NCBI GenBank assembly: GCA_032252755.1
Contig: JAVUPY010000023.1
Location: 1-64,000, forward strand
Origin: Terriglobia bacterium
GTDB taxonomy: Bacteria > Acidobacteriota > Terriglobia > Terriglobales > Acidobacteriaceae
Direction of reading: 5' to 3'
DNA length: 64,000 nucleotides
Every line of letters starts with the position of its first letter. The first letter of the stretch is position 1. The notes beneath the pieces are model-generated. The model was given only the letters and a program-made list of their open reading frames with translations. It had not been told where the DNA came from and ran no database searches. Below are positions 15,638-53,973 of this stretch, piece after piece. The position numbers and the translations under genes are program-made.

Positions 15638-15764
15638 AACGACCAAAGTTTTCGCAGCGACGAAAGTTCTCGAAACGACCAAAGCTTTCGGAACGACGAA
15701 AGTTCTCGGAACGATGAAAGTTTTCAGAACGACGAAAGTTGTCGGAGCGTTGGAGGTTTTCGGA
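15631..15764. repeat. 18-bp tandem repeat, 7.4 units
   Basis: The units are 15631-15648, 15649-15666, 15667-15684, 15685-15702, 15703-15720, 15721-15738 and 15739-15756, with a partial to 15764. Consensus TTCTCGRAACGACGAAAG, with alternating variants. The first unit matches the tail of repeat A, so the array probably arose by expansion of that tail. There are no spacers, so this is not a CRISPR array. Confidence 0.9.
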
Positions 15765-15765
15765 T

Positions 15766-15785
15766 GGCACGGCTGAAGCCGTGCC
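15766..15785. repeat. GGCACGGCT palindrome
   Basis: GGCACGGCTGAAGCCGTGCC is a perfect 9-bp stem with a GA loop, directly after the tandem array and 52 bp before the glycerate kinase start. Confidence 0.75.
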
Positions 15786-15837
15786 TCTTCAAAACAATGC
15801 ACTTGCAACGGGTTATGCCGTGCAGGTAATCGATTCC

Positions 15838-17193
15838 ATGCACGAAGTCAGCGGTGGTGAAACCCGGCGGTTAGACGAGGCTCTGGCGCTAGAGCAGAGG
15901 CACGCGGCGCGGGAGATCTTCTCGCAGGCGTTGGCCGAGTGCAGCATCGACCGCGCATTCGAACGGCATGTGTTTTACGAGCACGGGGTGCTGCGAGTTG
16001 TCGAAGATCTTTACGATTTCAACCTGTATGGCCGGGTGTTCGCAGTTGCCGTAGGCAAGGCTGCGCACAGTATGACCGAGTCGTTGATGTCGCGCGTGGG
16101 GCCGGGCGCGGGCATCTCAGGTATCGTTTGCGGGCCGACGGCGCCGAACTCGCAAGTGTTCGGCTTCCGGTATTACCGGGGCGGCCATCCCACGCCAAAT
16201 GGAGATTCGGTTCGGGCTGCGGAGGCGATCCTGCGAGGCCTGGAGTATCGAAACCAGGGATCGCTGATTATTTTCCTCATCTCGGGTGGCGGATCGTCGC
16301 TGGTTGAGAAGCCGATCTCGTCCGAAATTTCTCTTGAGGATCTTGTCGCGACTTATCGAGCGCTGGTTCACTCTGGCGCGACGATTGCCGAGGTCAATGC
16401 GATTCGGAAGCACCTTTCGGCGGTGAAGGGCGGCAGACTTGCGCTGGCGGCAAGTCCTGCTCACCAGGTTTCGATCCTCGTCAGCGATGTTCCCGAAAAT
16501 GCGCTGGACTCGCTTTCGAGCGGACCGACGATGCCGGACAGCAGCACGATCCGTCAGTGTCACGCGATCGCAAAGAAGCATGGCTTGTTGCCGGAGTTTC
16601 CGGACAGCGTGCGAGGGATGTTTGAGCGCGGGGAGTTGCAGGAGACTCCAAAGGCAAACGAGGCGGCGTTTGCGCACTCGCGCTGGTGGAAGGTGCTTTC
16701 CAATGCTTCGGTGCAAAAGGCCGCGGTGGAACGGGCGGCGCTGACAGGTTATGCCGTGGAAGTCGAGAACTCGTGCGACGACTGGGACTACGCGAAGGCG
16801 GCGGAGCATCTGTTGAAGCGTCTGCGGGCATTGCGGGAGGGCGTTTCACGGGTGTGCCTGATTTCGGGCGGGGAAGTCACGGTGAAGGTGAAGGGAACTC
16901 CGGGGGTCGGCGGACGCAACCAGCAGTTCGCGCTGGAGTGCGCGAAGAAAATCGCCGGAGAGACGATTACGGTGCTCAGCGTGGGAACCGACGGCGTCGA
17001 TGGAAACAGCACGGCGGCTGGGGCAATCGTGGACGGAACCACCATGGCTCGCGCGAGTGCGGCAGGACTGGATGCGGATGCCGCACTGAAAAAGTTCAAT
17101 ACCACGCCTTTCTTCAACGCGCTGGGGGACCTGGTGGTGACCGGGCCTACGGGGAACAACCTGAGAGACTTGAGGATTCTGCTGGCGTGGTGA
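15838..17193 (+). CDS. Glycerate kinase (GckA/TtuD, MOFRL family)
   Basis: The 451-aa enzyme phosphorylates D-glycerate, most likely to 2-phosphoglycerate for this class, in serine/glyoxylate or tartrate breakdown. It has the N-terminal DUF4147 domain with VAVGKAAHSM and LISGGGSSLVEKP. The C-terminal MOFRL domain carries ISGGEVTVKVKG, GGRNQQFAL and VGTDGVDGNSTAAGA. The frame is open back into the tandem repeat, but the ATG at 15838 gives the expected N-terminus (AREIFSQAL about 20 residues in). The ribosome site is weak. It stands alone. Confidence 0.9.
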   Translation: MHEVSGGETRRLDEALALEQRHAAREIFSQALAECSIDRAFERHVFYEHGVLRVVEDLYDFNLYGRVFAVAVGKAAHSMTESLMSRVGPGAGISGIVCGPTAPNSQVFGFRYYRGGHPTPNGDSVRAAEAILRGLEYRNQGSLIIFLISGGGSSLVEKPISSEISLEDLVATYRALVHSGATIAEVNAIRKHLSAVKGGRLALAASPAHQVSILVSDVPENALDSLSSGPTMPDSSTIRQCHAIAKKHGLLPEFPDSVRGMFERGELQETPKANEAAFAHSRWWKVLSNASVQKAAVERAALTGYAVEVENSCDDWDYAKAAEHLLKRLRALREGVSRVCLISGGEVTVKVKGTPGVGGRNQQFALECAKKIAGETITVLSVGTDGVDGNSTAAGAIVDGTTMARASAAGLDADAALKKFNTTPFFNALGDLVVTGPTGNNLRDLRILLAW

Positions 17194-17252
17194 GAGTGGA
17201 AGTCTGGGTTGCGTGGCATTACAAGAACAAGTCTGGACATAGTTGACAGAGC

Positions 17253-17286
17253 CACATCTGCGAAATGCGCGCAGATGTGGGGCACG
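17253..17286. repeat. Palindromic repeat family R, copy 5
   Basis: CCACATCTGCG pairs with CGCAGATGTGG around an AAATG loop, followed by GCACGG. It lies 60 bp after the glycerate kinase stop and just before the promoter of the small transcription unit. Confidence 0.85.
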
Positions 17287-17321
17287 GCGTGGCCTCATAT
17301 CCAGCGCCTTTGTTCCTGATT

Positions 17322-17351
17322 TTGACAGCCAGATTTGGTGCGGCGTAGTAT
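17322..17351 (+). promoter_or_regulatory. Sigma-70-type promoter
   Basis: TTGACA (17322-17327), 18-bp spacer, TAGTAT (17346-17351). Predicted start near 17358, 23 nt before the small ORF. It is one of the best promoter matches in the window. Confidence 0.65.
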
Positions 17352-17380
17352 CGGGTTAACACTGGAAAGGAGGTGGTCCG

Positions 17381-17440
17381 ATGGCGAAAAGTTCAGACTG
17401 TAGCCATAAAAGACTAAACAGTGAGGTGGCTGAGGCTTAG
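17381..17440 (+). CDS. 19-aa leader peptide or small protein
   Basis: The predicted product is MAKSSDCSHKRLNSEVAEA. The preceding AAAGGAGGTGGTCC (17366-17379) matches the complement of the conserved 16S rRNA 3' tail over 14 nt with one G-U, and GGAGG ends 7 nt before the ATG. Translation is therefore very likely if the RNA is made. The frame stays open for about 86 codons after the TAG, but that region includes the terminator, so readthrough is not assumed. Function unknown. Confidence 0.5.
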   Translation: MAKSSDCSHKRLNSEVAEA

Positions 17441-17610
17441 GGCGGATTCGCTCTAAACTCGCCGGATTCCGGTAGTTCTGGGATCTGTCGCAGGGTACGG
17501 TGCCCAGCGCAAGTCGCGGGGCCGAGCAACGGTGGACCGGAGCGTACATTGGGTTACGCGTGGTTCACTGGAGCGATAACCCGCCTCAGGCCAATCCCAA
17601 CAGCTAACCG

Positions 17611-17650
17611 AATGCCCGCCAGGCTACAGTGGCGGGCATTTTTATTTTTA
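17611..17650 (+). terminator. Rho-independent terminator
   Basis: Perfect 11-bp stem AATGCCCGCCA (17611-17621) / TGGCGGGCATT (17630-17640) with an 8-nt loop, followed by TTTATTTTTA. It ends the small transcription unit. Confidence 0.9.
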
Positions 17651-17752
17651 GCGCGATTAGCGAATCCAAAAGTTGACGAGGCTCGGACCGGGGAATAAGG
17701 TCGGCTGCATTATTAACTCCGAAGTTGCTGTCGCTCGTCCGGGAGGCGGACC

Positions 17753-18169
17753 GTGGCAACCAACGCGTTCATCGGACATCCCAAGCAGCCCAGTGAATCG
17801 GAGCTGGCGACGAAACTGGGCAAGAAGAAGCTGTTGTGGGATGAAGTGCTCGCGGAACTCGAGCGGCTCGGCGTGAGTGACCTGGAATGGACGTCGTATT
17901 CGCTCAAGTCGGGTTGGTCGCTGAAGGTGATCCGCAAGAAGCGCGTCATTGTGTACCTGAGCCCAATGCACGGAGGCTTTCGCGCCAGCTTTGCTCTCGG
18001 CGATAGAGCCGTTGCGGCAGCAAAGGCAAGTAAGCTTCCTCCGAAGATACTGAAGCTCGTTTCGAAAGGTACAAAGTACCCAGAGGGCACTGCGGTGCGG
18101 GTCGCGGTCGGAAGCCGCTCCGACGTCGCTACGGTTGCAAAACTCGCCACGATCAAACTTGCCAATTAA
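17753..18169 (+). CDS. DUF3788 family protein
   Basis: The 138-aa protein matches the DUF3788 layout: FIGHPKQPSESELATKLG at the N-terminus, LGKKKLLWDEVL, the SLKSGWSLKVIRKKRVIVYLSP core and GGFRASFALGDRAVAAAK. The function of the family is unknown; fold and size suggest a small soluble binding protein. The GTG at 17753 has GGGAGG upstream. It is monocistronic and convergent with ubiX. Confidence 0.85.
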   Translation: MATNAFIGHPKQPSESELATKLGKKKLLWDEVLAELERLGVSDLEWTSYSLKSGWSLKVIRKKRVIVYLSPMHGGFRASFALGDRAVAAAKASKLPPKILKLVSKGTKYPEGTAVRVAVGSRSDVATVAKLATIKLAN

Positions 18170-52403: not shown

Positions 52404-52412
52404 GTCAGCTAC

Positions 52413-52481
52413 GGGTGAAGGAGTTCACCCCTAACCGCTGTCCCACCTACTGTTAGAGCGGGACAGATGATGACTCCTAAC
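52413..52481 (+). promoter_or_regulatory. Fluoride riboswitch (crcB motif)
   Basis: P1 is GGGTGAA / TTCACCC around GGAG. It is followed by CTAACCGC, the P2 stem TGTCCC / GGGACA and the conserved GATGATGACTCCTAAC tail. AGGAGT in the P1 loop pairs with ACTCCT at 52473-52478, giving the diagnostic pseudoknot. It senses fluoride through Mg2+ and typically controls crcB, which is the next recognisable gene, 271 bp downstream. Confidence 0.9.
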
Positions 52482-52751
52482 AAGGGTTCTTGTTGCGGAG
52501 CCATGTCTGTCTGCTGCTGGAATCCCGAGAACAAGAGGGTTTGAACTGTTTGGGTATGTTGGTCGGTGTGCTTGCAGCATGCGCCGGAAGACGCATGTAA
52601 AAAGGGAATTGACTTTGGATTTTGCAGTCCTGACACGGTGGAGCACTGACCGCGCAATGGGACCAGCGATTCGGCTGTGCTTGGTTGTGGGATGGAAGTG
52701 GGCAGTCGGCAGTGAATTTCGGAGATGTCAAGGATCGGAGGAAGACCAGGC

Positions 52752-53129
52752 TTGCTTAAGTATGTGATGGTGGGAATCGGCGGGTTTATCGGTGCGATTG
52801 CCCGGTTTGTTCTAGGCAGCTATATAGGAAATCGATTCGGAACGCGCTTCCCATACGGAACTTTTGTGATCAACATTACGGGGACATTCCTGCTTGGAAT
52901 TGTCATGACCGTGTTGGTACAGAAGACGGATGCGAGTCCGAACTGGCATTATCTCGTGCCGATCGGGTTCATCGGCGCGTATACAACGTTTTCAACGTTT
53001 GAGTATGAAACGCTCCGAACGGTCCAGGACGGCCAAATGCTGATGGGCTTTGCGAATGTGGCGCTGAGTGTGATCGCCGGATTTGGCGCGGTTTGGGCCG
53101 GAGTTGTAGTCGGGCGGACATTCTCGTGA
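52752..53129 (+). CDS. crcB: Fluoride exporter CrcB (Fluc)
   Basis: The protein of about 125 aa has four transmembrane helices and forms a dimeric fluoride channel. Signatures are GIGGFIGAIARFVLG, RFPYGTFVINITGTFLLG (the conserved Asn lines the pore) and GFIGAYTTFSTFEYE with the Phe-box. The TTG at 52752 lies 7 nt after GGAGGAAG; GTG and ATG 12-15 nt later are alternatives. It is preceded by the fluoride riboswitch and followed by two DUF190 genes, a known partner family. Confidence 0.93.
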   Translation: MLKYVMVGIGGFIGAIARFVLGSYIGNRFGTRFPYGTFVINITGTFLLGIVMTVLVQKTDASPNWHYLVPIGFIGAYTTFSTFEYETLRTVQDGQMLMGFANVALSVIAGFGAVWAGVVVGRTFS

Positions 53130-53247
53130 GAGATTCGGCAGCAGTGAGTTTGGAAGCCTCTCTGGCGAGCACAGTAGCAGTGGCATCCTGGGACGTGCTG
53201 CTGAATCTCTCATGGCGCAGCGGGGGCCTTACCCGATAGGAGGAAAC

Positions 53248-53973
53248 TTGTTAACGAGTGGGCCAGCAAAAAAAGTGGCTGTGTACGTCATGGAAGGAGA
53301 GAGCTATCACGGGGCGCCGGTGTATTCGGCGATCCTCGATTTTCTCTTCTACCGGGGAATTTCCGGTGCCACTGTCACACGGGGCATCGCAGGCTTCGGC
53401 ACGGACCATAAACTCCATACGTCCCGCCTGGTAGACCTTGCGGACAAGATGCCGATAAAGATCGAATTCATCGAGAGCGCGGAGAAGGTTGCGGAAATTC
53501 TTCCGAAGCTTTCCGATATTGTTGGCAACGGCTTCTTCGAGATTCACGACACGAATGTCGTTCGGCCGCCCGGCATCAATCAGCAAGAGCCTGCGCCACC
53601 TCCTCTGAAGCGCGAGGGCAAAGCCAAGATGATGCGCATCCTTGTCGGGGAGAACGATAAATGGAATGGAAAGCCGCTTCATGAAGCGGTTGTTCACAGC
53701 TTGCGGGCAAATGACATTGCCGGCGTCACCGTGTTTCGAGGCATTCTCGGGTATGGTGCAAACCGTCGGATACATAAGGACTCGGCGCTGAATCTTTCGC
53801 ACGATGCGCCTATCCTGCTGTCGGTCGTTGACACCGAGGAAAAGCTCCGGGCGTTCATTCCCGTTCTCGATCAGATGATCCAACAGGGACTTGTTGCGCT
53901 GTCTGACGTCGAGATCATCAAGTACACCCACGATTACACCCAGGTTGAGCGCCGGAAGGAGGAACGCAAATGA
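53248..53973 (+). CDS. DUF190 protein with two tandem domains
   Basis: The 241-aa protein has two PII-like DUF190 domains (about residues 8-105 and 122-225), each with the pattern GRATVxRGIxGFG seen as SGATVTRGIAGFG and AGVTVFRGILGYG. DUF190 genes commonly accompany crcB, and the PII-like fold suggests a regulatory or accessory role in fluoride resistance. The TTG at 53248 has an ideal TAGGAGG. It overlaps the next DUF190 gene by 4 bp (ATGA). Confidence 0.88.
   Translation: MLTSGPAKKVAVYVMEGESYHGAPVYSAILDFLFYRGISGATVTRGIAGFGTDHKLHTSRLVDLADKMPIKIEFIESAEKVAEILPKLSDIVGNGFFEIHDTNVVRPPGINQQEPAPPPLKREGKAKMMRILVGENDKWNGKPLHEAVVHSLRANDIAGVTVFRGILGYGANRRIHKDSALNLSHDAPILLSVVDTEEKLRAFIPVLDQMIQQGLVALSDVEIIKYTHDYTQVERRKEERK

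Follow-up and report, generated by a model that had tools for sequence, protein, structure and literature searches.

The window, i.e. the whole 64,000-nucleotide stretch of DNA analysed here, contains a stand-alone transcription unit of approximately 290 bases (17359-17650, + strand). Its RNA is an unannotated acidobacterial branch of a small-RNA family that is known by name only from actinobacteria, Ms_IGR-5 (RF02471). The RNA carries a mini-ORF with complements of the 16S rRNA anti-Shine-Dalgarno (anti-SD) sequence near both ends. Sequence comparison indicates that translation, reading frame and composition of this ORF are conserved, and that its middle sequence is not.

Locus and transcription unit

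The unit lies alone in an intergenic gap of 559 nt (17194-17752). On one side the gap is bounded by a MOFRL/DUF4147 gene (15739-17193), on the other by a DUF3788 gene (17753-18169). An earlier sequence-only reading had described here a promoter, a 14-nt Shine-Dalgarno (SD) sequence, a 19-codon ORF ending in TAG, a GC-rich middle, a terminator stem and an otherwise empty gap, and all of these were found in place. The features of the locus are:

17322-17351 (+): promoter, TTGACA at 17322-17327, 18-nt spacer, TAGTAT at 17346-17351
17359-17650 (+): whole RNA, from the predicted +1 A17359 (5'-ACACUGG) to the terminator end, placed by promoter position, covariance model match (17359-17456) and terminator
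17360-17364 and 17419-17423 (+): helix P1, 5' strand CACTG and 3' strand CAGTG, covarying, all P1 cells paired
17366-17379 (+): extended SD AAAGGAGGTGGTCC, complementary over 14 nt to GGATCACCTCCTTT at the 16S 3' end, one of the pairs being G-U
17381-17440 (+): mini-ORF MAKSSDCSHKRLNSEVAEA, ATG at 17381, 19 codons, stop codon TAG at 17438-17440
17423-17428 (+): GAGGTG, a second anti-SD complement, whose first base precedes the stop codon by exactly 15 nt
17434-17437 and 17589-17592 (+): helix P3, 5' strand GGCT and 3' strand GGCC, with A-U / G-C exchange
17437-17456 (+): hairpin P2, TTAGGGC-GGATTC-GCTCTAA, which includes the stop codon
17581-17587 (+): CCGCCTC, a weak local form of the internal anti-SD that reads GACCRCCTC in related copies
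17593-17610 (+): conserved 3' block AATCCCAACAG-CTA-ACCG, predicted single stranded
17610-17651 (+): intrinsic terminator, stem at 17610-17641 followed by the T-rich tail TTATTTTTAG, with equivalents in homologues

Across 96 distinct upstream sequences, a -35 TTGAC and a -10 element were located at a fixed distance 5' of ACAC. Because this spacing is conserved, ACAC is likely to mark the first base of the RNA. The RNA folded better than its dinucleotide shuffles (z = -3.7). Both tmRNA and 6S RNA were found elsewhere in the host genome, and the window RNA therefore replaces neither of them.

Distribution in Acidobacteriota

Searches by blastn with the window DNA detected relatives in 83 of 150 same-family genomes. 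A covariance model of the RNA 5' part (R1), for which E-values are rough, matched 218 of 250 same-family genomes and 72 of 79 genera, nearly always in a single copy. Three genomes (G010, G036 and G248) had two R1 matches each, the second one in G010 being short (53 nt) and weak. Phylum-wide, R1 matched 67 of 396 acidobacterial genomes; some two dozen of these do not belong to the family, and other classes are represented. One R1 match (L200, E = 0.04 per genome) was judged false. Among 84,980 species genomes, an exact 23-nt core turned up in 98 stretches, and the record titles assign every one of these to Acidobacteriota; the pattern was derived from the family and is biased towards it. Exact-pattern scans of viral contigs and a plasmid search with the window RNA gave no match.

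The sequence-only reading had tied its proposal to the conservation of promoter, ORF and terminator in relatives. Promoter, SD, ORF and 5' helix were conserved in 98 copies, and the terminator in most.

Relation to Ms_IGR-5

A scan of the window at the Rfam gathering thresholds returned only a tRNA and a fluoride riboswitch, leaving the RNA locus without a match. The riboswitch (52405-52486, + strand, 37.6 bits) is followed on its 3' side by an ORF for a CrcB/Fluc-like small membrane protein (52725-53129, + strand) and by a second ORF (53212-53973); the whole is an ordinary fluoride-response unit.

The Rfam families Acido-1 and Acido-Lenti-1, suggested by the sequence-only reading, gave no match to the RNA, and the Rfam relative turned out to be Ms_IGR-5. 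At the window locus itself RF02471 had no match even at E up to 5-10, and the gathering score of 45 bits was not reached. Two relatives of the window RNA (L187 and L188) scored 50.6 and 47.3 bits, above this cut-off, and were matched over their full length. When RF02471 was run against the 396 acidobacterial genomes it produced 17 matches, of which 16 fell exactly on R1 places, with two in the window's own family. The sole match off the R1 places (G432/L227) was judged false. Plasmid and phage searches with the RF02471 consensus yielded a copy in Nocardia farcinica (142.7 bits) and one on the unannotated contig L234 (76.9 bits), and a search with the Nocardia copy added one in Nonomuraea. In the reciprocal test, R1 matched Nocardia L233 (E = 2.1e-7) and L234 (E = 2.9e-7) with the same start as the RF02471 match. 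The L234 copy (MT835602.1, 15373-15548) comes from a record entitled 'Bacteriophage sp.' from human faeces, where the Ms_IGR-5 RNA lies among cellular-looking genes; this contig is probably an actinobacterial chromosome rather than a phage.

Ms_IGR-5 and the acidobacterial RNAs have the same order of elements: 5' ACAC, GGAAGGAGGTGGTCC, GTGAGGTGGC.., an AAT.CC..CAG..CACC block and the terminator. They also share the end of the ORF. The three ORFs of the actinobacterial branch (MDSSRTREVAVR, MISDRTCEVARR and MVSHSRASEVVVR), including the Nocardia and Nonomuraea copies, end in E-V-x-x-x-stop, and in each of them GAGGTG precedes the stop codon by 15 nt. Unlike Ms_IGR-5, the acidobacterial copies often have a longer middle, the hairpin P2 and, in one group, the internal anti-SD. 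Sequence homology places the window RNA in one superfamily with Ms_IGR-5, though it scores below the threshold of that family.

In Rfam, Ms_IGR-5 is typed as an sRNA ('Actinobacteria sRNA') with no ORF shown. MS_IGR-5 homologues with ribosome-protected reads have been reported in M. abscessus and M. smegmatis (PMC4974804), and Ms_IGR-5 transcripts in S. lividans (PMC8079986) and S. avermitilis (PMC8780764). Literature searches on the peptide strings and on Ms_IGR-5 function found no functional study, and a description of the conserved translated frame was not found in the open-access papers searched. A poorly characterised actinobacterial 'sRNA' proves to be older and more widespread, and to have a conserved translated frame. 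With homologues in M. smegmatis and Streptomyces, a question raised by uncultured soil bacteria becomes testable in laboratory strains.

RNA structure and the 3' domain

Helix P1 links the 5' end of the RNA with the base preceding the GAG codon and the first base (G) of that codon. Its most variable pair was CG in 36, GC in 36, UA in 22 and AU in 1, with zero unpaired. All slid versions of the helix collapsed in control comparisons, and fixed-position anchored counts concurred. The copies are related and these counts are not independent; redundancy weighting of the 5' and 3' columns gave approximately 38 effective sequences. In P2, both sides had changed in 6 of 7 pairs and 95.5% of the cells were paired; the minimum free energy fold of the window did not contain P2 as a separate hairpin. 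P3 consists of four pairs between the last codons and the bases immediately 5' of AATCCC. It was paired in approximately 90% of the weighted sequences, and its support is weaker than that of P1.

The 3' block AATCCCAACAG..ACCG and the terminator recur in most acidobacterial copies, and the block is also part of the Ms_IGR-5 consensus. The internal anti-SD beat shuffles in 70% of the family main group. No copy of the ACACGGG group and few copies outside the family had one that did so; being confined to the main group, it was rejected as a universal switch. One relative (L029, approximately 1590-1680, + strand) has an extra 80-90 nt or so with inverted repeats right after P2, resembling a small insertion element.

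The mini-ORF

An ORF of 11-22 codons was present in all 98 acidobacterial and all three actinobacterial copies examined. The first ATG or GTG 3' of the SD was in frame with GAGGTG, and the frame open, in 98 of 98 acidobacterial copies. The GAGGTG hexamer and its 15-nt spacing to the stop codon were invariant in these copies and in the three actinobacterial ones, i.e. across two phyla. Among the 98 copies, the SD-to-GAGGTG distance falls into all three classes modulo 3, so it is the start codon that compensates and keeps the frame. These matches come from the model of the same 5' part, which carries no reading-frame information. Stop codons block frame +1 in 86 copies and frame +2 in all 98.

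The ORFs showed three-base periodicity, with A, G and T at 48%, 47% and 48% of codon positions 1, 2 and 3, respectively. Before the last five codons, Ser and Cys made up 36% of the residues (11.5 ± 1.0% in shuffles), and 97 of the 98 ORFs had at least two such residues. The codon AGT was observed 191 times against 22 expected, and NTN codons (T in the middle) 84 times against 259. Serine was enriched within the family (30.5% vs. 8.2%) as well as in other classes (23.9% vs. 10.0%). Because the Ser codons fall in a predicted loop, part of this bias may be structural; the Ser/Cys enrichment could stem from nascent-peptide properties or loop composition instead of sensing. The middle of the ORF had no excess of synonymous changes (synonymous/nonsynonymous 239/1051 in frame, 269/1056 in frame +1 and 86/1204 in frame +2), in a comparison of low power on a very short ORF. 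As synonymous changes were no commoner in frame than in frame +1, constraint on the protein sequence is absent there.

These results bear on whether the unit is simply a micropeptide gene, the RNA being the mRNA of a functional peptide of 11-22 amino acids ending in E-V-x-x-x and its structure serving stability. Such a gene would explain the in-frame ORF in all 101 copies, a C-terminus of the form [GSR]-E-V-[ATP]-x-[ATR] and the biased composition (Ser, Cys, Arg, Thr, Gly and Asp, with few hydrophobic residues). It does not, however, fit with the missing synonymous excess, nor with GAG and GTG codons that are invariant although E and V have alternative codons. Peptides of 11 amino acids have only E-V in common, and the long conserved 3' domain is left unexplained. 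We consider this explanation improbable.

Pairing with the 16S rRNA tail

The duplex of the window SD with the 16S tail was predicted by ViennaRNA at -25.4 kcal/mol, compared to -9.2 kcal/mol for AGGAGG alone. The 13-nt tail complement AAAGGAGGTGRTC occurred once in the 5.39-Mb genome, both strands counted, at the window site, and the reversed control sequence had zero occurrences in the same genome. The draft assembly lacks the 16S 3' end, and the tail was taken from complete same-family genomes; of 13 same-family relatives, 10 contained GGATCACCTCCTTT, each a single time, and its 16S context was read in one of them. In some lineages the start codon lies 12-15 nt from GGAGG, which implies weaker initiation.

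At the two ends of the ORF, mean anti-SD duplexes were -23.1 and -12.1 kcal/mol, against -8.8 and -8.6 kcal/mol in shuffles. GAGGTG complements the anti-SD core. In a ribosome whose A site holds the stop codon, 6 nt separate this hexamer from the P-site codon; for the same hexamer within the window SD, the spacing to the start codon is 5 nt. Given this complementarity and initiation-like spacing, we read GAGGTG as a putative site that holds the ribosome at termination, and its fixed distance offers a natural test of anti-SD pairing at that step. Two sites predicted to bind the ribosomal tail, at fixed positions in two phyla, suggest that being translated is the purpose of the RNA.

The sequence-only reading had named 'dual-function RNA' and 'RNA that engages ribosomes' among its possibilities, and both stand strengthened. 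Its observation was right, and understated: GAGGTG 15 nt before the stop, the covarying P1, the 3' block and the link to Ms_IGR-5 had all been missed.

Binding at both ORF ends, as predicted here, would also be expected of a ribosome sink, in which the RNA would retain ribosomes or 30S subunits through its extended SD, its slow codons and the SD at its stop codon, and so lower the number of free ribosomes under some condition. The promoter is near-consensus, and AGT accounts for 63% of the Ser codons, a share that is 9% in six host genes. There is, however, no general enrichment of rare codons, ATA and GTA being depleted. A sink further requires an RNA copy number close to that of ribosomes and leaves P1, P3 and the conserved 3' block unexplained, and we regard it as unlikely.

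The RNA could also work as an antisense RNA against the 16S 3' tail, with a part in the maturation or decay of rRNA; the ORF would then be secondary. The 13-14 nt of complementarity to the mature 3' end are kept in side lineages through G-U pairs or a one-base bulge, but every copy has a start codon after the SD that opens an ORF with an invariant end, and antisense needs no frame. This makes the antisense explanation very unlikely.

Genomic context and function

The third possibility named by the sequence-only reading, a leader-peptide attenuator without downstream gene, is right in its anatomy: the mini-ORF is rich in Ser/Cys, its stop codon lies in a hairpin, and the unit has an intrinsic terminator. 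As a cis device, be it a classical attenuator or the leader of an adjacent gene, it is largely refuted and hardly credible, since the flanking genes vary on both strands (88 downstream and 79 upstream sequence clusters), with the first downstream gene on the same strand at 100 loci and on the opposite strand at 73, and that of the window encoding a DUF3788 protein. As genomic context is not conserved, the RNA is taken to act in trans and not as a cis leader. The sole repeated co-directional neighbour is a thiG-like thiazole synthase gene, which has the RNA just 5' of it on the same strand at 17 loci of one genus-level group (L153-L175).

The explanation we tentatively favour, with somewhat less than even confidence, is that the unit encodes a free-standing, trans-acting regulatory RNA of the Ms_IGR-5 superfamily, and that a ribosome translating the mini-ORF gates the folding of this RNA. 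The anatomy is as observed above; the output we infer. With no ribosome on the RNA, P1, P2 and P3 would form. A ribosome at the SD would open P1. On reaching the stop codon, its anti-SD would meet GAGGTG in an initiation-like geometry, and the ribosome would linger and hold P2 and P3 open. If instead it stalled in the Ser/Cys codons, P2 and P3 would stay closed. The supply of initiation, or the charging of tRNA-Ser/Cys, could in this way decide which state the 3' domain adopts or how stable it is. Within that domain, the conserved AATCCCAACAG..ACCG segment would be the part with an RNA or protein target in trans. The peptide itself would be no more than a by-product, which is also the case in attenuators, but here there is no gene downstream.

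A more general proposal, which we put forward as doubtful, is that Acidobacteriota and Actinomycetota share a class of regulatory RNAs that work as switches with the ribosome as a moving part. Anti-SD binding sites at the two ends of a mini-ORF would park it on the start and stop codons. Charging of tRNA-Ser/Cys or ribosome supply would be converted into a signal in trans, with no downstream gene.

Comparison with known systems

Leader-peptide attenuators and rnTrpL of Sinorhizobium, a trans-acting attenuator RNA, resemble the window RNA in having a short ORF rich in particular codons, a stop codon in a hairpin and a terminator. The window RNA differs from them by its own promoter, the extended SD, GAGGTG near the stop and the lack of a downstream regulated gene. 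SgrS/SgrT and RNAIII/hld are dual-function sRNAs, i.e. regulatory RNAs that also carry a short ORF, as does the window RNA, whose family in contrast keeps the ORF frame more than the peptide sequence, and does so across two phyla. With tmRNA it shares being a stable RNA with a mini-ORF; identity with tmRNA was ruled out, as there is no tRNA-like part and no ARAGORN or RF00023 match, and the genome has an ordinary tmRNA elsewhere.

The Caulobacter sRNA CC2171 (RF01867) has in its consensus a full complement of the 16S tail at the start, followed by GTG (GAAAGGAGGUGAUCCAGUG), and resembles the window RNA in this super-SD and start codon near the 5' end. It was rejected as the family of the window RNA, scoring 16.6 bits at the window and 24.7 bits at a distant relative, against a gathering score of 75. 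Because the likeness is mainly the SD, homology is not established. CC2171 may itself be another mini-ORF RNA.
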